Position numbers and translations under genes: made by a program
Notes under the pieces: model-generated
The model's database searches: none
Seen by the model: only the letters and a program-made list of their open reading frames with translations
Told to the model about the DNA's origin: nothing
From: Phytohabitans houttuyneae
Lineage (GTDB): Bacteria > Actinomycetota > Actinomycetes > Mycobacteriales > Micromonosporaceae
Reading direction: 5' to 3'
DNA length: 64,000 bases
Assembly: GCF_011764425.1 (NCBI RefSeq)
Contig: NZ_BLPF01000001.1
Span: forward strand, 2,347,001 to 2,411,000
Shown here: positions 40,210 to 56,380 of the stretch, in pieces
Numbering within the stretch: the stretch's first letter is position 1
How the letters are laid out: each line of letters begins with the position of its first letter

Positions 40210-40238
40210 AGCCACGGGCATAGATGCGAGGAGACCAG

Positions 40239-41723
40239 ATGCCAGCGGTTGGAACGTCCGCCTCCGCGCAGGTCAGGGCTCGGCTGAGCCACCCGGTAGT
40301 GGATTGTGACGGGCATTGGACCGAGCCCATCCCGCTGTGGGCCGAGTACGTCAGGAAGCTTGCCGGCTCCAGCGCTGCCGACACGTTCACGCGGATGCAG
40401 CGCGGCCGGGGCGACGCCTGGTACTCGATGACGCCGCAGGAGCGGCTCCGCCAGCGGTACTGGCGACCAGCCTGGTGGGGCTTCCCCGGTAACACGCTGG
40501 ACCGCGCCACCGCGATGCTGCCGGAGCTGATGTACCAGCGGCTGGACGACTTCGGCATCGACCTGGCCCTCATCCTGCCCACCCGGGGAAACACGCCCGA
40601 CTACATCCCCGACCCCGCGCTGCGCAGTGCCGTGGTGCGCGCGGCGAACATCATGCACGCCGAGGTCTTCGAAAAGTACGGCGACCGCATGCTGCCCGCC
40701 GCCACCATCGCCACCAACACGCCGGAGGAGGGCATCGAGGAGGCCGAGTTCGCGGTCAAGCAGCTCGGCCTGCGGGTCGTGGTGCTCAACGGAAGCCTGC
40801 GGCGCACGGTCCCGGCCTTCGAACGCGACGGTGCCGACCCGGCCGCACTGCCGTACTACATCGACAACCTCGCGCTCGACAGCCCGCACGACTACGACGG
40901 CCTGTGGGCCAAGCTGGCGGAGCTGCGGGTCGCGCCGATGACGCACAGCGGCAGCCGCGGCTGGGTCGACCGCTCCTCGGTGACCAACGACGTGTTCAAC
41001 CACATGGGTCATTTCGCGCAGGCGGCTAACTGCTTCGCCCGCGCCCTGTACCTCGGTGGCGTGCCACGGCGGTTTCCCACGTTGAAGTTCGCCTTCCTCG
41101 AAGGTGGCGTCGCCTGGGCCCGCAGCCTCTGCGCCGACCTGATCGGGCACTGGGAAAAGCGCAACGAGCGCGCGCTGCTCGAGCACCTCAGCCCGGCAAA
41201 CCTCGACCTCGCCATGCTGACCGAGCTCATCGTCAAGCACGGCGGCCCGTGGATGGCCGAGCACGTCGACGCGTTGCTGGCCAACCTTGACGTGCTGTTT
41301 CCCGGCACGAGCGTCGAGGAGCTCGTCGCGCGGGAGACCGACCTCGACGACTTCGCCGCCATCGGTGTCACGTCCGCCGAGGAGGTGGGCGAGACCTTCG
41401 CGCGAAACTTCTACTTCGGCTGCGAGTCCGACGATCCGCTGGTGTCGGTGGCGTTCGACACCCGGCTCGGGCCGGCGTTGAAGCCCTTCTTCAGCTCGGA
41501 CGTCTCGCACTTCGACGTCACCGACATGACCGAGGTGCTGGCCGAGGCGCACGAGCTGACCGAGCACGGCCTGCTCGACGCCGACCAGTTCCGCCGGTTC
41601 GTCTTCAGCAACACGGTCGAGCTGCACGGCGGCACCAACCCCGACTTCTTCCGGGGCACCGTGGTGCAGGCGGAAGCCGAGGCCGAGCTCGCCCGGCTCA
41701 GCGCACCCGGTGAGGTTTCGTGA
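40239..41723 (+). CDS. Amidohydrolase-family metal-dependent hydrolase/decarboxylase
   Basis: 494 residues from ATG 40239 with GAGGAG five bases upstream. The opening VVDCDGHWTEP is the HxH-like first metal motif of COG2159 amidohydrolases (here DGHW, so one His is replaced, as in some members). LALILPTRGNTPDYIP, PMTHSGSRGW and SSDVSHFDVTDM supply later His/Asp metal positions. Family members hydrolyse or decarboxylate cyclic or carboxylated substrates. It is the first of six genes joined by 4-base overlaps. The substrate in the pathway is unknown. Confidence 0.75.
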   Translation: MPAVGTSASAQVRARLSHPVVDCDGHWTEPIPLWAEYVRKLAGSSAADTFTRMQRGRGDAWYSMTPQERLRQRYWRPAWWGFPGNTLDRATAMLPELMYQRLDDFGIDLALILPTRGNTPDYIPDPALRSAVVRAANIMHAEVFEKYGDRMLPAATIATNTPEEGIEEAEFAVKQLGLRVVVLNGSLRRTVPAFERDGADPAALPYYIDNLALDSPHDYDGLWAKLAELRVAPMTHSGSRGWVDRSSVTNDVFNHMGHFAQAANCFARALYLGGVPRRFPTLKFAFLEGGVAWARSLCADLIGHWEKRNERALLEHLSPANLDLAMLTELIVKHGGPWMAEHVDALLANLDVLFPGTSVEELVARETDLDDFAAIGVTSAEEVGETFARNFYFGCESDDPLVSVAFDTRLGPALKPFFSSDVSHFDVTDMTEVLAEAHELTEHGLLDADQFRRFVFSNTVELHGGTNPDFFRGTVVQAEAEAELARLSAPGEVS

Positions 41724-42868
41724 CGGCCACGGACGACGTCGTGTGCACCCGTTGCGGACTTCCCGCGACACGGCGCACCGTCACCCTCGACCAGGACACC
41801 GTCTGTTCGGTGTGCCGGCACCACGAGGTGAAGCACACGGGTATCGACTGGGCCGAGCGGGCGGCGTCTCTTGCCGCGCTCGCCGACGAGGTTCGCGGGC
41901 GTGGGCAGTACGACGCGGTCGTGCCGTTCGGCGGTGGCAAGGACGGCGCGTTCGTCCTGTACCACCTCGTCCGCGAGCTTGGCCTGCGCTGCCTCGCGGT
42001 GACGGTGGACAACCGCTTCCTGCGCCCTCGGGCATGGGGAAACTGCCAGGCGGTGCTGGACGGGCTCGGGGTGGACCAGGTCATCTACCGCCCGCCGATG
42101 CCGCTCGTCAAACGCCTGATGCGGGTGGGCCTCGACCTGGCCGGCACCGTGTGCTGGCACTGCAACGCGGCGATCGCGGCGGTGCCGGTACGCACCGCGC
42201 TGCGGCTGGGCGTGCCCCTGCTCGTACACGCGCACAGCGTCGCCGAGTACCACAGCTACACCGGCCGCACCTACGCGGACGCGCCCACCGGCGACGTCGT
42301 CGACGCCGAGTGGTACGAGATGGTCACCGGCCTGACCTTCGACAAGGTGGCCGCCGCACTGTCCGATGTGGATCCCGCAGAGCTGGAGCCGTTTCGGCTG
42401 CCGGACGACGCCGAGGTGCGGGCCGCCGGCTTGCGCACCATCTTCCTGAGCAACTACCTGCGGTGGGACGAGCGGCGCCAGGTCGGTGTCATCGAGGAAC
42501 AGCTCGGCTGGTCGCGTGACGTCCAGGAGGGCATCCCGGCCGGCTTCGAGTACGAGAAGATCGACTGCTTCCTCGTCGGCACGCGGGACTACCTCCGCTA
42601 CATCCAGGAGGGGTACGGCCGTGGTGCCCGCCTCGGCGCGATGGAGGTACGGCTGGGTCGGATGTCCCGGGCCGAGGCCGAGGCGCTCGGCAGGGAAACG
42701 GACGGTCGGCGGCCGGCGAGTCTCGACACGGTGCTCGGCATGCTCGCCATCGACGAGGAGGAGCTACTCGACGCGGCGGACGCCTACACGACGCCGGGAC
42801 GCGAGTTCGACCTGGAGTCCGTGCGGCGCGGCGAGCCGCTGCCGGACGCCGCGGCGATGCCGCGATGA
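41720..42868 (+). CDS. PP-loop amidotransferase/sulfurtransferase-like protein
   Basis: 382 residues. An N-terminal Cys4 site (CTRCG and CSVC) precedes a PP-loop ATP pyrophosphatase motif, PFGGGKDGAFVLY near residue 70, and a central CWHCN. Proteins of this layout include N-acetyl sugar amidotransferases of the PseA/WbpG group, which install amidine or amino groups by adenylation, and TtuA-type sulfur carriers with a Cys-held cluster. The central CxxC makes sulfur transfer possible too. GTG at 41720 overlaps the amidohydrolase stop. It probably activates a carbonyl or acid of the product for nitrogen or sulfur addition. Confidence 0.72.
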   Translation: MTATDDVVCTRCGLPATRRTVTLDQDTVCSVCRHHEVKHTGIDWAERAASLAALADEVRGRGQYDAVVPFGGGKDGAFVLYHLVRELGLRCLAVTVDNRFLRPRAWGNCQAVLDGLGVDQVIYRPPMPLVKRLMRVGLDLAGTVCWHCNAAIAAVPVRTALRLGVPLLVHAHSVAEYHSYTGRTYADAPTGDVVDAEWYEMVTGLTFDKVAAALSDVDPAELEPFRLPDDAEVRAAGLRTIFLSNYLRWDERRQVGVIEEQLGWSRDVQEGIPAGFEYEKIDCFLVGTRDYLRYIQEGYGRGARLGAMEVRLGRMSRAEAEALGRETDGRRPASLDTVLGMLAIDEEELLDAADAYTTPGREFDLESVRRGEPLPDAAAMPR

Positions 42869-44976
42869 CCGCACGGCCGGAAGCGAACGGATCGCCGCCC
42901 GTGGAGTGGGACGACGCGCCGGCCGCCACCGGGCCCGCGGACGTGCTGCCCTTCAGCGCGATCGTCGGCCAGCCGGCCATGCGGGCAGCGCTGATGCTCA
43001 ACGTGGTCGATCCGTCGATCGGCGGGGTGCTGATCGGCGGCGAGCCCGGCACCGGGAAGTCGACCGCCGTGCACGGGCTGCGCGCGCTGCTGCCACCGAT
43101 CGAGGTGGTCGCCGGCTGCCCGTTCAACTGCCCACCGACCGGCGCGGGGCCGCGCTGCCCCGCCTGCCGGGACCGGCTCGCCGAGGCCGGCCGCCTGCCG
43201 GTCGCGCGGCGGCCGGTGCCGCTGGTCTCCTTGCCCATCGGCGCCACCGAAGACCGGCTGCTCGGCACGCTCAACCTCGACGCCGCCCTGCGACACGGCC
43301 AGCGGCGACTGTCGCCCGGCCTGCTCGCGGCCGCACACCGCGGCATCCTGTACCTGGACGAGGCGAACCTTGTCGCCGACCACCTGCTCGACGCCCTGCT
43401 GGACGCCGCGAGCTCGGGCTGGCACCGGATCGAGCGGGACGGGGTCTCCGCCGCCCACGCGGCCCGGTTTTCGCTCGTCGGCACCATGAACCCGAGCGAG
43501 GGCAACCTCCGGCCGCAGATCCTGGACCGGTTCGGGCTGAGCGTCACCGCCGAAGTGCTGCATGACCAGGCCAGCCGGGTGGCGGTGCTCCTGCGGCGGC
43601 TTGAGTCGCAGGACGCCTCGCAGCGGCGGTACGCGGACGCCGACGCCGCGCTGGCCGCCAGGCTGCAGCGGGCCCGCGCCATCCTGTCCCGCGTGAGCTG
43701 CACCCGGTCGACGCTGGAGTCCGTGGCCGCGCTCGTCGTCCGGGCCGGTGTCGCGAGCCATCGCGCCGACCTCGTGATCGTCCGCACCGCCCTGGCGAAC
43801 GCGGCGCTCGGCGGGCGCCCGGCCGTCACCCCCCAGGACGTGGCGGTCGCGGCCACCCTGGCTCTCGGGCACCGGGTGGCCGACGACGGTGCGCGGCTCG
43901 CGGCCGCGGTGACCGCGCTCGTCGGCGAGGAGGCGGGCAGCGCCGACGAGATCATCCGCCGCTGGGCCGAACCGGCGGACCTGCTCGACGGAGCGGACCG
44001 GGACTCGCCCCAGCCCCCGGCTGACAACACGCCTGGCGGCCGCGACGGCCCGGATCGCGCCGCCGGAAACGGCGCGATGCCCGGTCACAGCCTGAACGGC
44101 GGGACCGCCGCCGTGGTCGCGGGCGGGTCGGAGCCCTTCCTGGCGCCCGACCCCGGCCGGCCGCCCGCCGCCGCTCCGCACGGGTGGACCGCCGTCCTGG
44201 ACGCACCCACGCCCAGCCGCGATCTGCTGGCGCTGTCCCGGCGTCGGGTCGCCCACCCGCTTGCCGTACGCGCCCGCGGAAGGGCGGGGGGCGTGCCGGC
44301 GGGCACCGCACAGCGCGGGCCGATCTCGCTGCCGCTCTCCATCGTGGCGGCCACGCTCCGGCAGGCCGCGTCGCCGACCGCGCTCGGTCCGGATCGCCGG
44401 CTCGAACTGGGCCCCGGTGACCTGGTCCGGTCCGCTCACGCCGGGCGGCCGCGCCTCGCCACGGTGGGGGTGCTCGACTCGTCGTGGTCGATGGCGATGG
44501 ACGGCCTCTTCGCCGAGGCACGGCAGATCATGTCCGGCCTGTTCGCCGCGGCGCCGCGCGGCGACCGCGTCGCGCTGGTGGTCGCCGGCGGGGCGAACGC
44601 CCACGTCGCCGTGCCGTTCGCCCGGACGCCGGAGGCGGCGCTCGACGTTGTGCGCCGGCTGCGGCCACGCGGCCGCACTCCGCTTGTCGACGGCCTGCGC
44701 CGCGCCGTCGAGCTGTGCGGCAAGCGGTGGTTGTTCCGCAACGGCGGGATGGCACCGGCGGTGGTGATGGTGACCGACGGCCGTGGAGACCACGGGCGCG
44801 CGGACGACGAGGTGGCCCGGCTCGTAGCGACGGTTCGCCGGCTCGCACTGCCCGGGGTGATCGTGGTGCCGGCCACCGCCGGCTTCAGCTGGCGGAGCGA
44901 GAGCGCCACCCAGGCGCTGGCCCGCCGGCTCGGCTGGCGGCTCGTGGTGGCGGCACCGGCGGGAGGCCCGACGTGA
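42865..44976 (+). CDS. Fused chelatase-type AAA+/VWA protein (ChlI-ChlD-like)
   Basis: 703 residues. The AAA+ part has Walker A GEPGTGKST (59-67), Cys-rich insertion CPFNCPP with CPAC, and Walker B GILYLDEANL. A Pro/Gly/Asp linker follows (about 370-460). The C-terminal VWA domain has a complete MIDAS opening, Asp538, Ser540 and Ser542 in VLDSSWSMA, and a later TDGRGD. This matches fused BchI/BchD-type subunits of magnesium or cobalt chelatases. No large chelatase subunit (BchH/CobN) is nearby, so here it may instead load metal into, or remodel, another cluster enzyme, as MoxR-VWA pairs do. ATG overlaps the PP-loop gene (ATGA). Confidence 0.78.
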   Translation: MTARPEANGSPPVEWDDAPAATGPADVLPFSAIVGQPAMRAALMLNVVDPSIGGVLIGGEPGTGKSTAVHGLRALLPPIEVVAGCPFNCPPTGAGPRCPACRDRLAEAGRLPVARRPVPLVSLPIGATEDRLLGTLNLDAALRHGQRRLSPGLLAAAHRGILYLDEANLVADHLLDALLDAASSGWHRIERDGVSAAHAARFSLVGTMNPSEGNLRPQILDRFGLSVTAEVLHDQASRVAVLLRRLESQDASQRRYADADAALAARLQRARAILSRVSCTRSTLESVAALVVRAGVASHRADLVIVRTALANAALGGRPAVTPQDVAVAATLALGHRVADDGARLAAAVTALVGEEAGSADEIIRRWAEPADLLDGADRDSPQPPADNTPGGRDGPDRAAGNGAMPGHSLNGGTAAVVAGGSEPFLAPDPGRPPAAAPHGWTAVLDAPTPSRDLLALSRRRVAHPLAVRARGRAGGVPAGTAQRGPISLPLSIVAATLRQAASPTALGPDRRLELGPGDLVRSAHAGRPRLATVGVLDSSWSMAMDGLFAEARQIMSGLFAAAPRGDRVALVVAGGANAHVAVPFARTPEAALDVVRRLRPRGRTPLVDGLRRAVELCGKRWLFRNGGMAPAVVMVTDGRGDHGRADDEVARLVATVRRLALPGVIVVPATAGFSWRSESATQALARRLGWRLVVAAPAGGPT

Positions 44977-45965
44977 GCGGCTGGCATCCGTACGTTGTCG
45001 ACCTGACCGGCGACGCGGCCGCCGCGGCCCTGGCGCTGGCCGGCGACGCCGCCCGCGAGTACGGCACCGTCGAGAGCCCGGACCTGCAGGCAGAGGCGCT
45101 CACGATCGCTCAGGAGCTGCCCCGCGACGTACGCCGGGCGCTGAACGCGTTTCGACTCTCCGAACCCTCCTGCGTATGTCTCGTCCGCGGCCTTCCCGTC
45201 GACGACGCGGCGCTCGGGCCGACCCCGCGGACCAGGGCGGAGCGCGAACGCGGTGGCCAAACCGCCGCGGAGGTCTTCTTCTACCTGTGTGCCGCGCTGC
45301 TCGGCGACCCGATCGCGTGGTCCACCAAGCACAGCGGGCGGATCATGCACACGATCGCGCCCCTGCCCGAAGACGAGGACGAGCAACTCGCATCCAGCAG
45401 CACGACGCCGCTGACCTGGCACACCGAGGACGCGTTCCACCCGCTGCGCGCCGACTACGTGGCCCTGCTGTGCCTGCGCAACCCGGACGGTGTACCGACC
45501 ACCGTCGGCTGCGTGGACAACCTCACCCTGCCGCCGCGGGTGCGGGAGGTGTTGTCGCAGCCCCGCTTCACCATCACGCCCGACGGCTCCCAGCTTGCCA
45601 GCGGCGGGATGGCCGCGATGGCCGCAAACCCGGAGCCGGTGCCGCTGCTCTTCGGCGCCCAGGACGCGCCGTACCTGCGACTGGACCAGTTCTACACGCG
45701 ACCCCTCGACAGCGACGCCGAGGCGCGGTCGGCGCTTGACTCGCTGCTCGCCGCCACCGACGCGAGCCTTTCCCGGTACGCCCTGCGCCCCGGTGAAGTG
45801 TGCATTGTGGACAACTACCGGGCGGTGCACGGCCGGGACAGCTTCCGGGCGCGTTACGACGGTACCGACCGCTGGCTGCGGCGCCTCAACATCGCCCGCG
45901 ACCTTCGCCGCTCCCGGGCCCTGCGGGCCGCGCCGGCGGTACGCGTGCTCGGCACCAGCGCATGA
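44973..45965 (+). CDS. Fe(II)/2-oxoglutarate amino acid hydroxylase (MppO/VioC-like)
   Basis: 330 residues of the clavaminate-synthase-like/TauD fold. The iron facial triad is visible as His150 and Glu152 in WHTEDAFHP, and His286 in NYRAVHGRDSF, with the 2-oxoglutarate Arg shortly after. The HTEDAF and YVALLCLRN context is that of VioC, AsnO and MppO, which hydroxylate the beta carbon of arginine, asparagine or enduracididine. The GTG overlaps the chelatase-like gene. With the MppP- and MppR-like genes nearby, beta-hydroxylation of an arginine-derived residue is the best guess. Confidence 0.8.
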   Translation: MSGWHPYVVDLTGDAAAAALALAGDAAREYGTVESPDLQAEALTIAQELPRDVRRALNAFRLSEPSCVCLVRGLPVDDAALGPTPRTRAERERGGQTAAEVFFYLCAALLGDPIAWSTKHSGRIMHTIAPLPEDEDEQLASSSTTPLTWHTEDAFHPLRADYVALLCLRNPDGVPTTVGCVDNLTLPPRVREVLSQPRFTITPDGSQLASGGMAAMAANPEPVPLLFGAQDAPYLRLDQFYTRPLDSDAEARSALDSLLAATDASLSRYALRPGEVCIVDNYRAVHGRDSFRARYDGTDRWLRRLNIARDLRRSRALRAAPAVRVLGTSA

Positions 45966-46771
45966 ACGGAGACGACGACACCGTGCACCTCGCCGGATAC
46001 ACCCTGCCGCTGTCGCCATCGGGCCGCTCGGCGCTGGTACCGCCGCCGCCCTGGCACTTCTCCGGGGACGTCCTGGCGGTGGAGTACCTTGCCGACCCGG
46101 CCGCGGTGCGGTCGTTCCTCCCGCCCGGCATCACCCCGGCGGACCCGCCCGGACTCGCCTTCGCGATCTTCGGCGACTGGCAGTCCTGCACAGACCAGGG
46201 TGCGGAGCTCACCGACCCGGTCCGCAGCCAGTACCGGGAGTTCTACGTCGCGCTCGCCGGGCAGTGGGAGGGCGACCTGGTTGCCCGTTGCCCGTTCTGC
46301 TGGGTGGACCAGGACTTTTCGCTCGTCCGCGGGCTCATCCAGGGGTACCCCAAGAAGCTGGGCCGGATCGGCATCACCCGCCTCTTCGACGTCGGCCGGG
46401 CCACCCCCGGCCTGCTCCCCGGCGCTGTGTTCGGCGCGAGCCTCGCCGGCGCCGACCGCCGGCTGGTCGAGGCGGAGGTGACGCTGCGCGGGCCCGGTGA
46501 GGCGCCACCGCTGATGTCCGCACCCCTCGTCCACACCCGGCTGTTTCCGGCCTGGACGCCGGACGGGGCACCGGTCGAAGAGCTCGTGACCGGCGGCAGC
46601 ACCGACCTGACCATCGCAAACGTGTGGACCGGCGACGCGACCCTCTCGTTCTTCGAGTCGCCGGTCGACGAGCTGGCCCTCCTGCGACCCGTCGAAGTGC
46701 TGCGGGGCTACCGGTTCAGCTTCGCCGAGACGATCGTCGGCGGGCGCCTCCTGTCCGGTACCGCGCGATGA
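45962..46771 (+). CDS. Acetoacetate decarboxylase-like enzyme (MppR-like)
   Basis: 269 residues of the acetoacetate decarboxylase superfamily. The Schiff-base Lys pair is in IQGYPKKLGRIG (Lys131/132). VEYLADPAAVRSFLPPGI and FYVALAGQWEGD are other family segments. MppR of mannopeptimycin biosynthesis has this fold but acts as a cyclase that forms 2-ketoenduracididine from 4-hydroxy-2-ketoarginine. The presence of an MppP homologue in the same cluster favours that role over simple decarboxylation. It overlaps the hydroxylase and citrate-synthase-like genes by four bases each. Confidence 0.75.
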   Translation: MNGDDDTVHLAGYTLPLSPSGRSALVPPPPWHFSGDVLAVEYLADPAAVRSFLPPGITPADPPGLAFAIFGDWQSCTDQGAELTDPVRSQYREFYVALAGQWEGDLVARCPFCWVDQDFSLVRGLIQGYPKKLGRIGITRLFDVGRATPGLLPGAVFGASLAGADRRLVEAEVTLRGPGEAPPLMSAPLVHTRLFPAWTPDGAPVEELVTGGSTDLTIANVWTGDATLSFFESPVDELALLRPVEVLRGYRFSFAETIVGGRLLSGTAR

Positions 46772-47871
46772 GCGCCTTCCAGTCCGGCCTCGAAGGCGTC
46801 GTCGTCGCGCAGACGGAGATCAGCGAGGTCGACGGCGAGCGCGGCCGGCTGATCTACCGTGGCGGCAATCTCATCGAGGGGGTGTGGCAGCGCAACGTCC
46901 CCGAGATCGCCCACCTCCTCTGGTACGGCCGGTTTCCCACCGCCGCGGAGCTTGCCGATTTGGAGCGCGTGCTCGCCAGCCGCCGTGCGCTCAACCCGGC
47001 TGCCCGGGCCGCGCTCGCCGGCCTGCCGGTCGATGCCGACCCGATGGACGCGCTGCGCACCCTGCTGTCCGCCGCCGGCGCCGGCCCGGGTTGCCCGTCC
47101 CCGTCGATCGACCAGGCGAAGACCATCACCGCGCAGGCCGCTACCGCGCTGGCGGCGTTCTGGCGGCACCGGCGCGGGCTGCCGCCGGTGGAGCCCTGCG
47201 CCGAGCTCGGCCACGCCGAAAACCTGCTCTACATGATGCGCGGCGAGCGGCCGACCGCGGACGAGGTGCGGTGGCTCGAGGCGTACCTGGTCATCACGGC
47301 GGACCACGCGCTCAGCCCGTCCACGTTCACGGCCCAGATCGTGGGCTCGGCCGGCGGCGACCTGTGGTCGGCGATCGTCGCGGCGATCAGCACGCTCAAG
47401 GGGCCGGCGCACGGCGGTGCCATCGCGGCCGCGACGGCCATGCTCGCCGACGCCGGCACGCCGGAGAACGCCGAGCGGTTCGTGGTGGACCTGTTGGACC
47501 GCGGCGGCCGGCTGATGGGATTCGGCCACCGCGAGTACCGCGTCTACGACCCGCGGGCCCGGCTGCTGGGGGCGGTCTGCCGGGAGGCCAACCCCGCCTT
47601 CCACGAGGTGGCCTCGGCGGTGGAGGAGGCCGCGCTGCGCGAGCTGGCCCGCCGGTACCCGCACCGCCCCAACTTCACCAATGTCGACTTCTTCGCCGGT
47701 GGCATCCTGTCGCGGCTCGGCTTCGACCCGGACTTCTTCGCGTGCGTGTTCGCCGCGGCGCGGGTGGTCGGGTGGTCGGCGCACGTGGTGGAGTACCTGG
47801 ACCGCGGTGGGCGGATCATCAGCCCGAAGTCGGAGTGGATCGGCCCGGAGCCGGCCTCAGATCCGGGTTGA
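46768..47871 (+). CDS. Citrate synthase-like enzyme
   Basis: 367 residues. Catalytic positions of citrate synthases are all recognisable: His in TADHALSPSTFTA, His in KGPAHGGA, His in MGFGHREYRVYDPRA, and Asp in TNVDFFAGGI. It should condense an acyl-CoA with a 2-oxo acid. It is somewhat short, like 2-methylcitrate and secondary-metabolism forms. It closes the six-gene overlapping run and ends in a 15-base convergent overlap with the flavoenzyme gene. A cluster function on a keto-arginine or other 2-oxo acid is possible, but a primary-metabolic role is not excluded. Confidence 0.8.
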   Translation: MSAFQSGLEGVVVAQTEISEVDGERGRLIYRGGNLIEGVWQRNVPEIAHLLWYGRFPTAAELADLERVLASRRALNPAARAALAGLPVDADPMDALRTLLSAAGAGPGCPSPSIDQAKTITAQAATALAAFWRHRRGLPPVEPCAELGHAENLLYMMRGERPTADEVRWLEAYLVITADHALSPSTFTAQIVGSAGGDLWSAIVAAISTLKGPAHGGAIAAATAMLADAGTPENAERFVVDLLDRGGRLMGFGHREYRVYDPRARLLGAVCREANPAFHEVASAVEEAALRELARRYPHRPNFTNVDFFAGGILSRLGFDPDFFACVFAAARVVGWSAHVVEYLDRGGRIISPKSEWIGPEPASDPG

Positions 47872-49050
47872 GTCGATCGCCTCACCGGCCAGCAGCCCGC
47901 CGGCCAGCGCGTAGAACTCCGGTCCCACGCCCGCGTGCTGCGTGATCGTGTACATGTCGCGCAGGTGGCGCTGCACGGACGCGCCGTCGTACACGCCGAC
48001 CGAGCCGCTGCACCGGTACGCGACGTCGACCACCTCGGCGGCCACCGCGACGACCCGCGAGCTCGTCGCCCGCAGCCGGGCCCGGTCGAGCAGCGAAAAC
48101 AGGTGACCCGCGCTGGCCAGGTGCCACATCTCTGCGGCGTCGGCGTACAGCAGCGCGCGTGCGGCGCGCAGGCTGGCGTCGGCTTCGCCGAGCCGGTGTT
48201 GAAACAGCGGAGCCGCGGCGAGCCGCTGCCCGCCGTACGCGGCGCGCTTGCCGGCCCGGGCCACGGCGGCGACGTCGTCGAGCGCGGCGCCGGCGATGCC
48301 GAGCGCCACCGCGGCGATGAAGAGCCCGAGCTGCGCGACCGACGGAATCTCGAAGACCGTGCCGGGCACGGTGGGCGCCCCGCCGAACAGCCGGCATGTG
48401 CGTTCGGGCGGGCACAGGACGCCGTCCAGCCGCACGTCGTGGCTGCCGGTCCCGCGCAGGCCGAGCGCCTGCCAGGTGTCGACGACCTCGGCGTCGCGGA
48501 CCGGGGTGAGAGCCAGGCGCAGCTCGGGCGCGCCACCGGCGTCGAGCACGGGGGCACCTTCGCCGGTGACCACCCGGCTGTGTGTGATCAGCCAGCTGCT
48601 GTGCTCGCATCCGCTGGCGAACGGCCACTGTCCCCGGATGAGGTATCCCCCGGCGGCCACGGTGGCGGTGCCCTTCGGCGCGTGGGAGCCGGCCGAGATG
48701 ACGTCGGGGCCGTCCGCGTAGACGGCCCGGAAGGTGTCCGCGGGAAACAGCGAGAAGACGATGATGTTGCTTGCCGCGATCATGACGTTCCACCCGGTCG
48801 AGCCGTCCGCTCTGGACAGTTCCTCGACGACGGCGAGTGCCTGGTCGACGCGGAGCTCGTCCCCGCCGTACTCCTTCGGCAGGAGCATCCGGAAGCATCC
48901 GGCCGAGGTGAGGTCGGCCAGGACGTCGGGCGGGAGGCGGCGGGCCGCCTCGATCGCGGCGGCGCGTTCGGACAGGGCGGGCGCCAGGTCCCGCACGTTG
49001 GCGAGGGTCGGCGACGCCGGCAGCGGTGACCCGGAGGCGGTGGCGTTCAC
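47857..49050 (-). CDS. Acyl-CoA dehydrogenase-like flavoenzyme
   Basis: 397 residues of the acyl-CoA dehydrogenase/HpaC-partner hydroxylase superfamily: FRMLLPKEYGGDELRVDQAL, then RGQWPFASGCEHSSW and WQALGLRGTGSHDVRLDG. The catalytic Glu of acyl-CoA dehydrogenases is not evident. The FASG pattern is closer to flavin-dependent monooxygenases of this fold that act in secondary metabolism. It begins at GTG 49050, two bases after the MppP-like gene stop, so both form a leftward operon. It probably oxidises or hydroxylates the amino acid or carrier-bound intermediate. Confidence 0.75.
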   Translation of the reverse strand: MNATASGSPLPASPTLANVRDLAPALSERAAAIEAARRLPPDVLADLTSAGCFRMLLPKEYGGDELRVDQALAVVEELSRADGSTGWNVMIAASNIIVFSLFPADTFRAVYADGPDVISAGSHAPKGTATVAAGGYLIRGQWPFASGCEHSSWLITHSRVVTGEGAPVLDAGGAPELRLALTPVRDAEVVDTWQALGLRGTGSHDVRLDGVLCPPERTCRLFGGAPTVPGTVFEIPSVAQLGLFIAAVALGIAGAALDDVAAVARAGKRAAYGGQRLAAAPLFQHRLGEADASLRAARALLYADAAEMWHLASAGHLFSLLDRARLRATSSRVVAVAAEVVDVAYRCSGSVGVYDGASVQRHLRDMYTITQHAGVGPEFYALAGGLLAGEAIDSTRI

Positions 49051-49052
49051 GG

Positions 49053-50168
49053 CTACCGCGTCCTGGTGGCCTCTGCCAGGTGCGCCAGCGCGGTGTCCAC
49101 GTCGACGGTGTTGCGGGCCAGCGCCAGGCGCAGGTAGCGACCGCCCTCGCCCGGTCGCGCCCAGTGGAACTGCTGGCAGGGCAGCAGATGGATGCCACTG
49201 CCGCGGAGCAGGCCCAACACGCGGCTGGCCGCCTCGGCGGAGTCGAACCGCAGGCGGCAGACGCTCACCCGTGCGTCCGGATCGGCGACGGCGACGCCGG
49301 GCAGGTCGGCAACGGCCGCCGTGACCCGGGACCGGTTGGTCGCGATGAGCTCGTGCAGGGCGCCCATTCCACTCGCCGCGGCGTCGAGCGACAGGGTCTC
49401 CACGAGCTTGAGCACAAGTGGGGAGACGCTGAGCAGTACCTCGCTGAGCGCGTGCGCCACGGCTTCCCGGAGGTCATCGCTGACCGCGAGGAAGCCCAGC
49501 TTCAGCTCGGCCATCGGCCAGATCTTGCCGGTGTCCTCGATGACGATGTACGACACACCGGACCGGTCGAGGATCTCGTAGGTGTCGTACTGGGCGCGCA
49601 CGTCGAAGCCGCGGAAGGACGTGTCGAGGCACAGCAGGATGCCGTTGACCTTGCAGGCCTCGGCGAGCGTCTTCAGGGCGGCGCTGTCCAGGTACCAGCC
49701 GGTCGGGTTGTTGGGCGTGGTGACGAACAGGGAGGTCGCACCCTGCTGGACGATCTCGTCGAGCGCGGGCGGCGCGCAGTCGTCCTCCCCCACCGGCAGC
49801 ACGGTCACGCTCCGGCGGAGCAAATCCGAGATGTTGTCGAAGGTCGGGTGCAACAGCGCCAGGCGGTGCTGCCGCTGGGCGAGCACGTTGCCCACCACCA
49901 TCGTGGCGACCGAGGAGGAATAGACGCTGAACACCCGGCCGTCGGCGATTGGCGCGCGGTGCTGACCGAGCATCGCGAAGAAAGCCCGCTGCGCGTGTTC
50001 CTCAATGTGGTCCGCGGGGAGGGCCAGCGCCACCTCGAACAGTTCCGGCAGCGCGTGAATGATCTTCCATTGTTCGTCGGTCGGGTCCTGGCGCGGGTGG
50101 CCGTCCGCCATGTTGAGATGTGAGACGAGTGCCTGTTGCTCAAGTTCGGTGAGATTGAGCACGCGCAT
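49053..50168 (-). CDS. PLP-dependent L-arginine hydroxylase/oxidase (MppP-like)
   Basis: 371-residue type I aminotransferase-fold protein that shares diagnostic segments with MppP and its relatives (RohP, Ind4): LNMADGHPRQ (18-27), YSSSV, LLHPTFDNISDLLR, TPNNPTG (151-157), LDTSFRGFD, IEDTGKIWP with PLP Lys215, and PCQQFHWARP. MppP is an O2-consuming enzyme that turns L-arginine into 4-hydroxy-2-ketoarginine without transamination. The ATG at 50168 is chosen because the family N-terminus begins there. It leads a leftward operon with the flavoenzyme and is divergent from argS. This is the strongest clue that the cluster makes an arginine-derived product. Confidence 0.85.
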   Translation of the reverse strand: MRVLNLTELEQQALVSHLNMADGHPRQDPTDEQWKIIHALPELFEVALALPADHIEEHAQRAFFAMLGQHRAPIADGRVFSVYSSSVATMVVGNVLAQRQHRLALLHPTFDNISDLLRRSVTVLPVGEDDCAPPALDEIVQQGATSLFVTTPNNPTGWYLDSAALKTLAEACKVNGILLCLDTSFRGFDVRAQYDTYEILDRSGVSYIVIEDTGKIWPMAELKLGFLAVSDDLREAVAHALSEVLLSVSPLVLKLVETLSLDAAASGMGALHELIATNRSRVTAAVADLPGVAVADPDARVSVCRLRFDSAEAASRVLGLLRGSGIHLLPCQQFHWARPGEGGRYLRLALARNTVDVDTALAHLAEATRTR

Positions 50169-50316: not shown

Positions 50317-51975
50317 GTGATGCCAACCCAGCTTGCTGAAGCCGTTCATGGTGCCGCGGCGGCGGTCCTCGCCGAGCGGGGCTTGGACCAGTCGGTCCTG
50401 CCCGACCAAGCGACCGTGAGCCGCACCAAGCGACCCGAGCACGGCGACTACGCCTCGAACATCGCGATGCAGGTGTCCAAGGGCGTGGGTGTGCCGCCGC
50501 GAGAGCTGGCCGGCGACATCGCCAGCCATCTGGCGAACTACCCGGGTGTGCGCGGCGTCGAGGTGGCAGGTCCCGGGTTCCTCAACATCTGGGTGGCGGC
50601 CGCTGCGGCGGGTGGGGTGGTCCGGGAGATCGTGCGCCAGGGCGATGCCTACGGCCGCACCGAGACGCTGGCAAACGACCGCGTCAACCTGGAGTTCGTT
50701 TCGGCCAACCCGACCGGCCCGATCCACGTCGGCGGGGTGCGCTGGGCGGCGGTGGGCGACGCGCTGGCGCGGCTGATGCGTGCTGCCGGTGCTGATGTGG
50801 TCACTGAGTACTACTTCAACGACGCCGGCGCGCAGATCGATCGGTTCGCCCGCTCGTTGATGGCCGCCGCCAAGGGCGAGGCGGTCCCCGAGGACGGGTA
50901 CGTCGGCGACTACATCGGCGAGATCGCCGCGGCGGTCGTGGAGCGGCGGCCGGACGTGCTGAGCCTGCCCGAGCCGGAGGCGCAGGAGGTCTTCCGCGTC
51001 GAGGGCTGCGCCTTGATGTTCGACGAGGTGAAGGCGTCGCTGACCGAGTTCGGCCTCACGTTCGACGTGTTCTTCAACGAGCAGACGCTGCACGAGCGGG
51101 GCGAGGTGCAGGCGGCGTACGACCTGCTGACCGAGCGCGGCTACGTGTACCCGAAGGACGGCGCGTTCTGGCTGCGCACGACGGCCTTCGGTGACGACAA
51201 GGACCGCGTCATCCGCAAGTCGAACGGCAACTGGGGCTACATCGCGGCCGACTGCGCTTACTACCTGGACAAGCGCCGCCGCGGGTTCGAAAAGGTGATC
51301 CTGGTGCTCGGCGCCGACCACCACGGCTACGTCGGCCGGCTGCGGGCGATGGTCGCGTGCTTCGGCGAAGACCCGGACCGCCACCTGGAGCTGATCATCG
51401 GCCAGCTCGTCAACCTGACCCGCGACGGCAAGCCGGTCCGGCTGTCCAAGCGGGCTGGCACGCTCGTTACTCTCCGCGACATTATCGACGCTATCGGTGT
51501 TGACGCGGCGCGGTACGCGCTGGCCCGCTACTCGGTCGACTCCGCCATCGACCTCGACCTCGACCTGTGGACGCGGCGCTCCAACGACAACCCCGTCTTC
51601 TACGTGCAGTACGCCCACGCCCGCATGGCGAGCGTGCTGCGCACAGCGGCCGAACGGGGCGTCTCGCGCGGCGACGACTTCGACCCGTCGCTGCTCGTGC
51701 ACGAGCGCGAGGGCGACCTCGTGCGCGCGCTTGCCGCGTTTCCCAGCGTGGTCGGGATGGCGGCGGAGCTGCGCGAGCCGCACCGGGTGGCCCGCTACCT
51801 GGAGGAGCTGGCCGGCACGTACCACAAGTTCTACGACACCTGCCGGGTGCTGCCGCACGACGACGAGGAGCCGACCGACCTCAACCGGGCGCGGCTGTGG
51901 CTCGTCGAGGCCACCGGCACCGTGCTCGCCAACGGCCTGTGGCTGCTCGGCGTCTCCGCGCCGGACCGGATGTAG
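50317..51975 (+). CDS. argS: Arginyl-tRNA synthetase inside the biosynthetic cluster
   Basis: 552 residues, complete class I ArgRS. N-terminal additional domain ([12 protein letters not shown]), HIGH motif as HVGG (137-140) within [25 protein letters not shown]-equivalent LSKRAG (376-381) and the DALR anticodon domain ending [10 protein letters not shown]. It charges tRNA-Arg with arginine. The GTG at 50317 is followed by an in-frame ATG at 50320. It sits between arginine-modifying genes, not next to lysA/hom/thr genes as housekeeping argS often is in actinomycetes. It may be a second copy giving self-resistance or supplying Arg-tRNA to the pathway, or the only copy in the genome. Confidence 0.93.
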
Positions 51976-51991: not shown

Positions 51992-52990
51992 TCACGCGCC
52001 CCGAAGGTACGTCTCGGTGAACACCTGGACGACCGTGTCGACCATCGCGCGGGTCACGTGCGAGCCGTCCGGCAGCCGGCTGAACTCGGGGTCGGCGCCG
52101 GTGACAAGCTCGTAGCTCGGGAAGTAGTGCACGTCGGGGTGGCGGAACGCCCATGCCTCCGCCACCGCGCGCAGCACCGCCTTCGAGTAGGTGTTCGCGA
52201 CGATCACGTCCCGGCCGGTGAAGGTACACCGCATCGTCACCGGTGACACCGTGACGACGATGTCCGGCCCGCCGGTGCCGCCGGCCGGGTGCAGCAGCTC
52301 GTAGATCCGCTCCAGGTTGCGCAGGTTTTCGCCGTAGTCGGTGACCTCGAACTGGTACCGGTCCGGGTGCAGCTCGCGCATCTGGGCGGTTGGCGCGCCG
52401 TTGAGGTAGTAGCCGGTCAGCTGGTCCCGCCAGACCTCCACGAGGCCGAGGGTGACGACGACGACCCGCGCCCGCGCGATCCGGGCGGTGAGCGTGTCGT
52501 GCTGCCGGCGCCGCCGCAACGTGCCGTCCAGGTCGACGAGCTCCAGCGCGTGGTGGGCGTGCGGGTCCACGACAAGGCCGCCGTCCAGGCGGACCAGCCC
52601 CGCGTCGGGAAACTGCGCGGCCGGGTCAAGCGCCCATTCGATGGCCTGCACCATCGAATGCGTGTGGTACTTGTTCGTCACGTGATCGGGGCGCCCGACC
52701 TCACCGTCCGGCATCCGCTCACCGGCGAACTCGCGGCCCAGGCTCAGCACCGGATAACCGCCGGCGTCCAGCGCGTACTCGATGTTTCGCGCGAAGCACG
52801 AACCGATGCAGAAGACCGGGTCGTCACGGCGCAGGTGGAAATCCGCCGGGATGGTGAGCCGAGGTATCCGCTCGCGCAACCGCACACCCGCCGGTGGATG
52901 GGGATACGGCTCGTCGTCGTACCAGTACGCGGCCGGATTTTCCGCCAAGCGCCGGAAGGCATCGTCGGCCGTCAAACGCAGCAGTGCCAA
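51992..52990 (-). CDS. GSCFA-domain SGNH-like protein
   Basis: 332 residues. FCIGSCFARNIEYAL is the GSCFA motif with the Ser nucleophile block, DHVTNKYHTHSMVQAI the next family block, VVVVTLGLVEVW and IVVTVSPVTMRCTF further blocks. GSCFA proteins are SGNH-hydrolase relatives thought to act on acyl groups of glycans or lipids. A C-terminal His-containing segment (DVHYFPSYELV) fits the family. It is convergent with argS and lies head to head with the radical SAM gene. Substrate unknown. Confidence 0.8.
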   Translation of the reverse strand: MALLRLTADDAFRRLAENPAAYWYDDEPYPHPPAGVRLRERIPRLTIPADFHLRRDDPVFCIGSCFARNIEYALDAGGYPVLSLGREFAGERMPDGEVGRPDHVTNKYHTHSMVQAIEWALDPAAQFPDAGLVRLDGGLVVDPHAHHALELVDLDGTLRRRRQHDTLTARIARARVVVVTLGLVEVWRDQLTGYYLNGAPTAQMRELHPDRYQFEVTDYGENLRNLERIYELLHPAGGTGGPDIVVTVSPVTMRCTFTGRDVIVANTYSKAVLRAVAEAWAFRHPDVHYFPSYELVTGADPEFSRLPDGSHVTRAMVDTVVQVFTETYLRGA

Positions 52991-53176: not shown

Positions 53177-55162
53177 ATGCCGGACAGTCATCTAGTCCCC
53201 CGCTACGAGGCCGACAAGGGCCATGTGCGATTCGCCGACGATGTCGTCTTCCACGTCCGCAGCGGCGCCATCGGTACCGCGGACGGACCCTGCACCTGCG
53301 CACAGGACGAGCCGATCTTCCATCCCGCGGGGTACCGCGAGGCCGTCCCTCAGCTGCAGCTGTCCCTCACCGACGCGTGCAACATGGGCTGTACCTACTG
53401 CTCCTTCCGCGACCGCGTGCACGCCGACGGCAAGCCTGTACGGATGCCGATGCCCGTGGTGCGGCAGGCGGTCGACTTCTTCCGGCGCGAGGTCGTCGAC
53501 GACCAGACGCGGTACAGCCGGGTCGACTTCGGCCTGGCCGGCGAGACGATGCTGGTACGGCACCTGCATGAACAGGTGCAGGAGACGGTCATCGCGGGGC
53601 TTGAAGGCTCGCCGGTCGCCACCGTCTGGAGTGGACCCAACGTCACCAACGGCACGCTCTCCATGGACGCGGACCTCGCCGACCAGCTCGGACCGCCGCA
53701 GGACATCAGCCTTGACGGGCCGCGGGAGGTGCACGACCGCGTCCGCTTCTACACCAACGACCGTGGCGGCACCTACGACGACGTGCGTCCGGTGCTGGAC
53801 CGGGTGCTCGCCCGCCATCCCGACATGGGTGTCTCGTCGGTGCTGACCGCGTACTGCACGGACTTCGCCAGCATCTTCTCCCACCTCTACGACGACGTGG
53901 GCGCGCGAAACATCTACATGAAGCCGGTCAACGCCAGCCACGACAAGGACTACGCGCTCAACCGCACGACTCTGCCCGCCTTCGAAGAGGGATACCTGGG
54001 CCTTGTCGAGCACATCCTCGACCACGACGCCGCCGGGATCCTCGGCCGGCTCATGGCGTTGAGCACCGAGGACTACTTCATGCGGTTCTTCTACCGGGTC
54101 AAGGACCAGACGGTTCAGGTGTACCGGTGCGGGGCCGGCAAGAGCGGCGCCTATGTGGACACCAACGGCAGGCTCTACGCCTGCGCCCATTTCATCGGCA
54201 AGTCCGGCTGGGACATCGGGCACGTCAGCACGGGCTTCAACGAGGAACGGCGCCGGGAGTTCGCCGACATGACCGTCGACGACCGGCCCGGGTGCCGCGA
54301 CTGCTACGCCCGCTACGCCTGCGGCGGCGGCTGTCACTACCAGGCGGTCCTCGCCAACGGTGACATCAGCCGTCCGGACGAGGTCAAGTGCGACCTCATC
54401 CGCTTCCTCGTCCGGCTGGCCCTGCGCCTGTTGACCTATCTGGACAGACACCACCCGGAGGTGCTCGCGGCGCTACCGGCACCGTTCGGGATCGACCCGG
54501 CACTCGCGGAAGCGCCCGCCCAGGCCGCGTACCGGCCGGTCGGAGCGCTCGTCGCCGGCAGCGGGGCCGCGCCGGTGCGCCTCGGTACGCCGGGCCGCGT
54601 CCGTGGCGGCCTGCCACCGGAGTGGGATCACCCGGCGCTGCTTCGCGTCGACGACGGCCAGCTGACGGTGGACCTCGGCGGCCCGCCGCCGCACGACGGG
54701 GAGCTGCGCGCCGGTGTGGCCGCCCTGCGGCTGTGGCTGGTGCGCTACGACGACATGACGCTCGGGGACCTGACAGTGCGAACCCCGCAGAACGACGGGA
54801 TGCTGTTGCGGGTGACCGCCGCCGGGGCGGCGTGGCGCGAGGCGAGCCAGGAACGCTTCCGCCGCGTGCCGCACCCCCCGGCCGTGTGGCGCCCCGCGCC
54901 GGAGGTCGAGGTCGCACCGGACGGCGAGCGGGTCCGGGTACGCGTCGACATTGCCGCGCTGGCCGGTGCCGGCGCGCTCGGCCTCAACCTCTTCCTCGAC
55001 CTGTCCTCGGGCGGCCACGCCGCGCTCGCCGTACGCGAGCCGTTCGTCGGCCTCTCCCCGGGGGTGTCCGGCTCGTTGCGGCTCACCGGACCCGACGCCG
55101 ATCGCGACCAGTCGCTGCTTCCGCTGAGTCGCTGGGCAGGTCTGCAGCCCAATGTCTGCTGA
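53177..55162 (+). CDS. Radical SAM/SPASM protein with C-terminal extension
   Basis: 661 residues. The radical SAM cluster is Cys68, Cys72 and Cys75 in CNMGCTYCSF. A SPASM-type auxiliary cluster region lies at about 315-415 (CGAGKSGAYVDTNGRLYACA, then CRDCYARYACGGGCHYQ and CDLIR). The last 230 residues (about 430-661) are an unrecognised beta-rich domain (LRLWLVRYDDMTLGDLTV). SPASM enzymes modify peptides or small molecules at unactivated carbons. GGAGGGAGG precedes ATG 53177. It heads the right-hand run of eleven overlapping genes. No peptide precursor gene is seen next to it. Confidence 0.82.
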   Translation: MPDSHLVPRYEADKGHVRFADDVVFHVRSGAIGTADGPCTCAQDEPIFHPAGYREAVPQLQLSLTDACNMGCTYCSFRDRVHADGKPVRMPMPVVRQAVDFFRREVVDDQTRYSRVDFGLAGETMLVRHLHEQVQETVIAGLEGSPVATVWSGPNVTNGTLSMDADLADQLGPPQDISLDGPREVHDRVRFYTNDRGGTYDDVRPVLDRVLARHPDMGVSSVLTAYCTDFASIFSHLYDDVGARNIYMKPVNASHDKDYALNRTTLPAFEEGYLGLVEHILDHDAAGILGRLMALSTEDYFMRFFYRVKDQTVQVYRCGAGKSGAYVDTNGRLYACAHFIGKSGWDIGHVSTGFNEERRREFADMTVDDRPGCRDCYARYACGGGCHYQAVLANGDISRPDEVKCDLIRFLVRLALRLLTYLDRHHPEVLAALPAPFGIDPALAEAPAQAAYRPVGALVAGSGAAPVRLGTPGRVRGGLPPEWDHPALLRVDDGQLTVDLGGPPPHDGELRAGVAALRLWLVRYDDMTLGDLTVRTPQNDGMLLRVTAAGAAWREASQERFRRVPHPPAVWRPAPEVEVAPDGERVRVRVDIAALAGAGALGLNLFLDLSSGGHAALAVREPFVGLSPGVSGSLRLTGPDADRDQSLLPLSRWAGLQPNVC

Positions 55163-56380
55163 CCCAGCCCGGGCGCCGGGCGGCGCCGGCCGTGACGCGG
55201 GTGCGCACGTCCTGGTCATGAGCAACCGGTACGACACCGAGCCCGGCGCCGGCGGCACGGAGGCCCTGACGGCCGATCTCGTCACCGCGCTGACCGCACG
55301 GTCGCTGCGGGTCACCTGGTTGACGCCGGCGGCCGCCGGCCAGCAGCGGGCCGGCGCGGTGCCCCGCCCGCGCGTGCCTGGCGGGAGCGGGAGGACGACC
55401 AGGCCGCCGCGCTGGCACCCGTGCTGGGCCGGCTGGCCCCGGTCGACCTTGTCCACCTGACCCACTTCAGCCGGACCGGGCTGGCGTTTCTCGACCAGCC
55501 GCCGCTGCGTCACGTGCCGCTGGTGGCGACGCTGACCGACTACACCGCGGTCTGCGCCGACTACCAGATGGTGCACCGCCGGACCGGAGACGAGTGCGCG
55601 GCGCCCGTGCCGGCCGAGGACTGCGCGAATTGCCTGGCCACACATCCCGACGGCGCGGCGCCGTCGGCCGCGGAGGTCGCGGGGTGGCGACACCGCAACC
55701 TGCGGCTGCTGAACGACCGCTGCCGGGCGGTGTGGGTACAGACGCCGCATCAGGGTCGGGTCCTCGTCCGCGCCGGGCTACGCAAGTCGCTGATCGTGCG
55801 CGACCGCGCCGAGTACGACATCCCCGCGCACTGGGGGCCCGCGCCGCGGTCCGCGCCGGTCGTGCTGTTCGTCGGGCGGGCCTCGCCGGAGAAGGGCCTG
55901 CACGTCCTGCTGGAGGCGTTTCGGCAGTGGGCAGGGGCGGCGCGCCTGGTGGTCGTCACCAGCGCCGACGACCCGGCCTACGAGGCGCGGCTGCGCGAGC
56001 GCGCGGCGGCCGACCCGCGCGTGGAGTGGCGACCACCGCTGCGCCGGGGCGACCTCGGCGCGCTGCTCGCCGGTGCCGGTGCGCTCGCGGTGCCGTCGCA
56101 GTGGCCGGAAAACTACCCGATGGTCGTGCACTACGCGCGGGCGCTCGGCGTGCCGGTGGTGTGCTCGTCGGTGCCGTCGATGGAGCATCTCGGCCAGCGG
56201 GACGGGGTGTGGCTCGTCGACCGGCGGGACGACCCGCGGGCCTGGGTGGACGCGCTTGACGCGGTCCTCAGCGGGCCGGCCGGCGCGCGGGAGGACCGCA
56301 CCGGGCAGTTCCGGGCGGCCTACAAGCAGTTCGTCGACGAGATCGCCGGCGTCTACGCGACCGTGCTGGCGGGCCGATGA
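55152..56380 (+). pseudogene. GT4-type glycosyltransferase, apparent frameshift
   Basis: The first frame, from ATG 55152, gives a glycosyltransferase N-terminus (HVLVMSNRYDTEPGAGGTEA). The remaining 330 residues are in another frame, from WREREDDQAAALAPVLGRL through FVGRASPEKGLHVLLEAF and VPSQWPENYPM. One extra C in the C4 run at 55362-55365 would join them exactly. The full-length protein would be about 409 residues with the donor-binding Glu of GT4 in SQWPEN. It overlaps both radical SAM genes. The gene is either interrupted or the base was missed. Confidence 0.78.

Follow-up and report, generated by a model that had tools for sequence, protein, structure and literature searches.

The locus considered here raises the question of what a bacterium might make from arginine when enzymes of the enduracididine route are encoded in company foreign to that route. 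It lies in a stretch of 64,000 nucleotides of Phytohabitans houttuyneae (NZ_BLPF01000001.1, positions 2,347,001 to 2,411,000), hereafter the window, in whose coordinates all positions are given. The original prediction, made from the sequence alone, held that MppO-, MppP- and MppR-type genes stand together in one cluster beside chelatase-like, citrate-synthase-like and two radical S-adenosylmethionine (SAM) genes, and that this points to a new arginine-derived metabolite. The three genes indeed lie where it placed them, the motifs that it read are correct on re-checking, and family scans show all the named neighbours to be real; chance is excluded by the family E-values and by the preservation of the block in two further genomes.

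The cluster apparently comprises 17 genes, seemingly without a nonribosomal peptide synthetase (NRPS) of its own, and is built around a rare cassette. By its gene content, the cassette is a variant of the enduracididine route that is short of the amination gene and has gained a citrate-synthase-type gene. The best explanation of the whole, to which we give a probability of roughly 0.45, is an amination-free, acetyl-CoA-extended arginine pathway with a resistant arginyl-tRNA synthetase (ArgRS, product of ArgS). The cluster being unusual and no description of it having been found, the product is probably an undescribed arginine-derived compound, and to this extent the original prediction probably holds.

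A rare enduracididine-type cassette

The core of the cassette consists of seven genes in the order WbuX-chelatase-FeOG-MppR-citrate synthase-MppP-HsaA, where FeOG is the Fe(II)/2-oxoglutarate (Fe/2OG) oxygenase, MppR an acetoacetate decarboxylase (ADC)-fold protein and MppP a pyridoxal phosphate (PLP) enzyme. Of 80 MppP loci, only two share it, namely those of Micromonospora sp. NBRC 107566 (L020) and Variovorax sp. dw_308 (L021). The window genes are:

41720 to 42868, + strand: WbuX-like PP-loop ATPase/amidotransferase (NCBIfam TIGR03573, 231.7 bits, cut-off of 203.2 passed; identity 66% in L020, 61% in L021)
42865 to 44976, + strand: fused chelatase I/D-like AAA+ ATPase and VWA domain (TIGR02442, 479 bits, under the cut-off of 779; identity 48% in L020, 43% in L021)
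44973 to 45965, + strand: Fe/2OG oxygenase of the MppO/GntD/VioC type
45962 to 46771, + strand: MppR-type ADC-fold putative cyclase
46768 to 47871, + strand: citrate-synthase-type enzyme with Ser352 replacing a conserved Arg (Pfam PF00285, 4.6e-100)
47857 to 49050, - strand: HsaA-like flavin monooxygenase of the acyl-CoA-dehydrogenase fold (HsaA model, 200 bits, under the cut-off of 450; 49% identical in L021)
49053 to 50168, - strand: MppP-type PLP enzyme, a predicted arginine oxidase, with Lys215 in its EDTGK motif

Both L020 and L021 keep the core order, the window differing in the inversion of MppP and HsaA. Micromonospora shares ten further genes with the window (ArgS, two radical SAM proteins, two glycosyltransferases, a decarboxylase, a sulfotransferase, an epimerase, the protein at 60603 to 62360 and an amidohydrolase). 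The loci come from a scan based on the MppP alignment in one genome per species (84,980 species), which confirmed 84 places and left 80 loci; as it relies on exact short patterns, further cassettes may exist. However, only the window's own cassette passes 1e-75 in 394 genomes of the class, only that of L021 passes 1e-60 in 299 genomes of the Variovorax family, and the best plasmid match has 49%. The unusual gene company claimed by the original prediction is thus borne out. No paper was recognised as describing this gene set, which is weak evidence of absence as the subscription literature lay mostly outside the search.

The PLP enzyme scores 296.8 bits against the MppP model TIGR04462, under the equivalog cut-off of 450, which the canonical L024 (580) and L047 (489) pass. 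Its nearest PDB chain is MppP itself (5dj1, 305 bits), with 188 bits for 6c3a, which we take to be RohP. It is identical to 5dj1 at 13 of 14 positions, a set chosen on our own assumption as to which ones matter; position 85 differs, and the equivalents of T12, E15, D27, H29, D188, D218, K221 and R352 are among those retained. The tree separates it, together with MppP, from RohP and 7n79 (97 support by the approximate likelihood-ratio test SH-aLRT); this tree was built by a quick method, drew long-branch warnings for the rows of the window and of L021, and omits the short row L095. Phylogeny, in trees that contained neither ordinary aminotransferases nor true acetoacetate decarboxylases, thus agrees with the original prediction on the PLP enzyme as far as RohP and 7n79 go, and is no test of the ADC-like protein. 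The ADC-fold protein scores 287.1 bits (E 1.3e-85) against the MppR model TIGR04460, under the cut-off of 380 passed by L024 (481) and L047 (442), and keeps the catalytic lysine (Lys131, MppR Lys156).

The window, Micromonospora and Variovorax proteins group among themselves as separate clades next to the ordinary enduracididine enzymes: MppR with support 99/96, the oxygenases with 100/100, and MppP with 96 SH-aLRT under the limits just given for that tree. The MppR tree, from which rows L062 and L034 were dropped on account of a stop inside the read frame, places the protein of Streptomyces aureocirculatus (L022) as sister to the cassette clade (100/98). In this Streptomyces, an MppP-MppQ-MppR set of the type sister to the cassette's stands next to NRPS genes (L022:10001-13215), possibly the ancestral form.

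The Variovorax block has 54.5% guanine plus cytosine, its surroundings having 63-64%, and is flanked by a pair of copies of about 1.07 kb that are 82% identical; for these reasons it was probably acquired. The cassette, a mobile and rarely found variant of the enduracididine route, has probably moved between phyla. The Variovorax island (L112-L115, 44.8-58.3 kb of the contig) also holds adenylate-forming-ligase-like and P450-like genes, by reading of their sequences. In Micromonospora, a break near residue 111 divides the HsaA-like gene into two oppositely oriented halves, one at each end of the cluster and separated by 25 kb. One half stands beside an integrase-like gene, a pattern to be expected had the entire cluster been inverted (L020, L108-L110); inverted repeats of at least 10 bases were absent within 150 bases of the breakpoints.

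Two further groups emerged from the same scan. Fourteen loci (L068-L072, L074, L076-L078, L085, L094, L095, L098, L099) combine an MppP relative with a VioC-like oxygenase, have no MppR in the searched flank and apparently represent another arginine pathway. Nine Nocardia loci (L082-L084, L086-L089, L091, L093) form an MppP-like clade with neither MppR nor Fe/2OG matches in the searched flank.

Amination, hydroxylation and a possible carbon extension

The mannopeptimycin route is described in PMC11496134 as needing MppP, MppR and MppQ, then MppO; PMC10367076 likewise gives the route through MppP, MppR and the aminotransferase MppQ. A tblastn search with the L022 MppQ as query, in flanks of at most 10 kb, found MppQ in 38 of 41 MppR loci (37 at 1e-30, L031 at 1.8e-29); in 37 of these loci it is no more than 2 kb from MppP. 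It was not found by the same means in the flanks of L020, L021 and L060, nor in the window and the 39 kb to its right, and across the whole genomes of the carriers no MppQ exceeded the model cut-off. As the L022 MppQ itself misses that cut-off, the absence is to be read from position and tblastn. Without an MppQ-type aminotransferase, the keto acid would not be turned into enduracididine.

The citrate-synthase-type gene is the converse case. Among the 80 MppP loci a citrate synthase match occurs in L020 and L021 only, and in both of these collinear loci the gene stands between MppR and MppP. The cassette proteins keep the catalytic His215, His254 and Asp307, roles that we take over from pig citrate synthase, plus two arginines. 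At a third arginine, in an xRP motif, all three cassette copies have serine (Ser352 in the window copy), as against arginine in both PDB chains and in every full-length citrate synthase (6 of 6) from the three genomes. This arginine is presumably a substrate-binding residue contributed by the neighbouring subunit (pig Arg421). Hence, Ser352 would argue against oxaloacetate as the substrate.

The oxygenase passes the NCBIfam GntD cut-off (398.9 bits against 345) and falls short of that for VioC (351.5 against 418.6). The Fe/2OG triad read by the original prediction, His150/Glu152/His286, is confirmed by alignment with H168, E170 and H316 of VioC (PDB chain 6dax, which we take to be VioC), and the substrate-carboxylate arginine (R304) is likewise kept. 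Lys119 occupies the position of VioC Gln137, which contacts the substrate alpha-nitrogen according to PMC6224419. The residue is lysine in all three cassette oxygenases; VioC, CmnC and all 27 of the other loci have glutamine, and 6DAW, identified as NapI in that source, has leucine. The Gln/Glu feature with which MppO and GntD bind the amine is accordingly replaced, and Lys119 would argue against an ordinary alpha-amino acid as the substrate. The GntD label was considered and rejected as proof of an enduracididine hydroxylase, as 7 of 7 other scanned oxygenases pass the same cut-off, two VioC-like ones included.

The missing MppQ, Lys119 and Ser352 together would fit an acid without an alpha-amine. 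The absence of MppQ from all three cassettes, and the substitutions in the citrate-synthase-type enzyme and the oxygenase, also mean that beta-hydroxyenduracididine, which the original prediction implied as the product, is not the expected end point. The conventional alternative would keep that product: a housekeeping aminotransferase would replace MppQ, the oxygenase would act on L-enduracididine, and the citrate synthase, WbuX and chelatase genes would make some other part of the molecule. It can draw on the retained MppP residues and MppR catalytic lysine, on the oxygenase score above the GntD cut-off, and on the 19 matches to the MppQ model in the window's own genome, none of them above the cut-off. 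However, that cut-off does not discriminate, the absence of MppQ recurs in cassettes of two phyla against its presence in 38 of 41 MppR loci, the amine-binding position of the oxygenase has gone from Gln to Lys, and in both collinear loci MppR and MppP enclose the citrate synthase gene. We regard this alternative as rather unlikely.

The second arginyl-tRNA synthetase, ring closure and neighbouring genes

The ten genes shared with Micromonospora outside the core are:

40224 to 41723, + strand: Amidohydrolase_2 family protein, start possibly 40299 (Pfam PF04909, 1.1e-9; 75% identical in L020, no match in the L021 locus; distant PDB match to 5-carboxyvanillate decarboxylase, E 6e-4)
50317 to 51975, + strand: second arginyl-tRNA synthetase, ArgS (TIGR00456, 376.9 bits, cut-off of 261.65 passed)
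53177 to 55162, + strand: radical SAM/SPASM protein 1, 661 residues (PapB-type maturase model, 143.9 bits, under the cut-off of 340; 65% identical)
55250 to 56380, + strand: Group 1 glycosyltransferase, start uncertain (Pfam PF13692, 6.1e-19; 55-57% identical)
56377 to 57414, + strand: radical SAM/SPASM protein 2 (Pfam PF04055, PF13186; 63% identical)
57478 to 59046, + strand: PLP group II amino acid decarboxylase (Pfam PF00282, 4.4e-43; 65% identical)
59043 to 59846, + strand: glycosyltransferase-like protein by reading of the sequence (70% identical; no Pfam or NCBIfam match)
59833 to 60606, + strand: sulfotransferase-like protein (Pfam PF13469, 1.4e-25; 65% identical)
60603 to 62360, + strand: protein of no assigned family with a weak nucleotidyltransferase-like motif (Pfam NTP_transf_2, E 0.074 only; 49-50% identical)
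63424 to 63999, + strand: NAD-dependent epimerase/dehydratase, running beyond the window to 64035 (Pfam PF01370; 48% identical)

From the amidohydrolase to the citrate synthase type (40224 to 47871), six + strand genes share a 4 bp overlap at each of their five junctions; HsaA-like and MppP follow on the - strand, then ArgS onward to the epimerase. Two window genes lacked a match in Micromonospora, a GSCFA protein (51992 to 52990) and a carrier-thioesterase protein (62357 to 63412). No large chelatase subunit was present among the scanned genes, and an AlphaFold model of the protein at 60603 to 62360, built from 2 sequences, was of no use (mean pLDDT 38.9).

Counted at E 1e-60 in 61 genomes of the family, ArgS occurs in two copies in 2, in one copy in 56 and in none in 3. 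The two-copy genomes are that of the window (G000) and G1060, whose places coincide with those of the Micromonospora genome, and cassette-type MppR (at least 70% identity) is found in the same two of 61 only, two others having 43-46% matches. The two copies from the clusters pair as sisters (100/99) and stand clear of the housekeeping copies of both genomes. The housekeeping copy of the window's genome groups with a same-genus genome (100/98) and that of Micromonospora groups weakly with the single copies of its relatives (85/0), though it is 80% identical. At position 307 both cluster copies have glycine against threonine in 30 of 30 others; the adjoining tyrosine is presumably arginine-binding. 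An extra, distinct ArgS linked to the cluster, as target duplication would have it, is thus present in 2 of 2 carriers and in none of the 59 other family genomes. On the plain reading, the cluster ArgS is perhaps a target copy that resists the product. As the Variovorax island does not contain it, ArgS falls outside the core.

An alternative compatible with any reading of the cluster is that the extra ArgS charges tRNA for a tRNA-dependent amide-forming step instead of serving as a resistant target. In its favour, the ArgRS domains are kept in the cluster copy and it co-occurs with the cluster; however, no enzyme using aminoacyl-tRNA was recognised among the 20 proteins covered by the Pfam scan, and we hold this role to be improbable. 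To our knowledge, no natural antibiotic directed against ArgRS is on record; a literature search on this point turned up two papers, whose titles concern an insecticidal toxin of fungal origin and the degradation of toxins in the rumen.

The role of the MppR-type protein can also be questioned. The "Lys pair" named by the original prediction is Lys131-Lys132, and position 157, glutamine in 36 of 37 canonical MppR rows, is lysine in the cassette protein. The pair is the one found in Sbi00515 (PDB chain 4zbo, by our assignment), an enzyme that we take to be an aldolase or dehydratase, whereas MppR has Lys-Gln. This, with the score under the MppR cut-off, would suit an activity of the Sbi00515 kind, by which 4-hydroxy-2-oxoarginine would be cleaved or condensed instead of cyclised. 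Yet the nearest PDB chain is MppR 4jm3 (250 bits, against 197 for 4zbo), path length in the tree likewise places the protein nearer to MppR, in a tree that is no test of the two since Sbi00515 is its sole outgroup, and L022 has the same Lys-Lys pair beside MppP and MppQ. Loss of ring closure thus appears quite improbable. The MppR substitutions were also rejected as proof of a new substrate, and say nothing on the keto-acid route, as L022 shares many of them and yet has MppQ.

The statement of the original prediction that no NRPS is visible holds within the window and fails just beyond it: a carrier/condensation-like gene, by reading of its translation, begins at 64308, which is 308 bp beyond the window's right end, and Pfam Condensation matches follow at 77324, 86840 and 90690. 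The region from 64308 to 97762 (L018-L019) is a large NRPS/polyketide synthase (PKS)-type group with P450, ligase, carrier proteins, thioesterases and ABC exporters; in L018, two nearly identical carbamoyltransferase-like C-terminal stretches (68107 to 68931 and 70330 to 71184, by reading) represent a local duplication. An NRPS belonging to the cluster seemed likely at first and was set aside after comparison with Micromonospora and Variovorax. The 20 genes right of the window have no match in the 94.6 kb of Micromonospora contig searched; in the 72 kb Variovorax contig, matches are confined to P450 and ABC ATPase stretches, the control L022 having given 11 matches. Further, no Condensation domain appears on G398:C38 among the matches listed (3 of 3) or on G397:C13 among those listed (16 of 18). 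Judged from these two relatives, the cluster itself appears to be NRPS-free, and the neighbour in the window's own strain may be separate. That the cluster is the tailoring end of an NRPS/PKS cluster, supplying it with an arginine-derived building block, is very improbable on these comparisons, even with such genes adjacent and NRPS/PKS-type matches in the searched flank of 30 of 41 MppR loci, although the absence of such matches is not special alone, as 9 further MppR loci show it.

A candidate pathway and known systems

In the amination-free pathway preferred here, the MppP-type oxidase would convert L-arginine to 4-hydroxy-2-oxoarginine and the MppR-type enzyme would close the ring to 2-oxo-enduracididine, two steps that the sequences support. 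With no MppQ-type aminotransferase in the set, the keto acid would stay unaminated. The citrate-synthase-type enzyme could then join 2-oxo-enduracididine and acetyl-CoA to a citrate-like hydroxy-diacid bearing a cyclic guanidine, which the Fe/2OG enzyme would hydroxylate; the WbuX-like PP-loop enzyme may amidate a carboxylate and the flavin monooxygenase may oxidise the product further. The glycosyltransferases, epimerase, sulfotransferase, decarboxylase and two radical SAM enzymes could decorate the core. Finally, the product would be an arginine mimic inhibiting ArgRS, with the cluster ArgRS as the resistant copy of the target. Taken with all its parts as new chemistry, that is, an acetyl-CoA-extended cyclic-guanidine citrate analogue elaborated to a glycosylated or sulfated ArgRS inhibitor, with a resistant ArgRS and a seven-gene core moving between phyla, the proposal is unlikely. 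Were it true, a carbon-extending branch would be added to enduracididine-type metabolism, a citrate-synthase-type enzyme would have a new acceptor, and there would be a lead to a natural ArgRS inhibitor. Ser352, Lys119 and Gly307 of the citrate-synthase-type enzyme, the oxygenase and ArgS, respectively, make each step testable with single purified proteins.

Several points weigh against this pathway. With regard to amination, L060 also lacks MppQ in its flank; the aminotransferase could act from elsewhere, be it one of the 19 sub-threshold matches mentioned above or the 31% identical aminotransferase about 35 kb left of the Micromonospora cluster, which was not counted as part of it; and the model cut-off is missed even by the L022 MppQ (298.6 of 540), whose gene lies beside MppP. 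With regard to substrates, the Lys119 and Ser352 readings are drawn from sequence, the role of the arginine replaced by Ser352 was not confirmed by a literature search, two shorter citrate-synthase-like paralogues, left out of the count of six, also lack it, and many of the MppR changes recur in the MppQ-bearing L022. With regard to the target, the Variovorax genome has one ArgS and none in its cassette island, and the ArgRS in PDB chain 5yym has leucine at the Thr307 position. The pathway does not account for the roles of the chelatase-like and radical SAM proteins, and the split HsaA gene means that the Micromonospora cluster may be broken.

Among known systems, the cluster resembles the mannopeptimycin/enduracidin pathway in its MppP- and MppR-type enzymes with their catalytic residues and in its MppO-type Fe/2OG enzyme. 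It differs in the absence of MppQ, in MppP and MppR scores below the cut-offs, in the added citrate synthase, WbuX, chelatase, flavin monooxygenase and ArgS, and in that no NRPS was found within the conserved part. With the guanitoxin pathway (GntB-GntC-GntD) it shares an oxygenase above the GntD cut-off; however, it has no GntC-type cyclase, the PLP enzyme scoring 57.5 bits against a GntC cut-off of 415. The capreomycidine pathway is set apart by the VioD and VioC models, the VioD score being 43.5 against a cut-off of 390.9 and the oxygenase falling short of VioC as given above. The azomycin pathway has a PLP arginine oxidase of the same superfamily, RohP, whereas the cluster enzyme lies on the MppP side, and MppR and the citrate-synthase-type enzyme stand in place of what we take to be the other Roh enzymes. 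A parallel to the predicted carbon extension, set beside it by description only, is phosphinomethylmalate synthase of phosphinothricin biosynthesis, whose reaction is of the citrate synthase type but takes a keto acid different from oxaloacetate, as is proposed for the cassette enzyme with another substrate and in another pathway.

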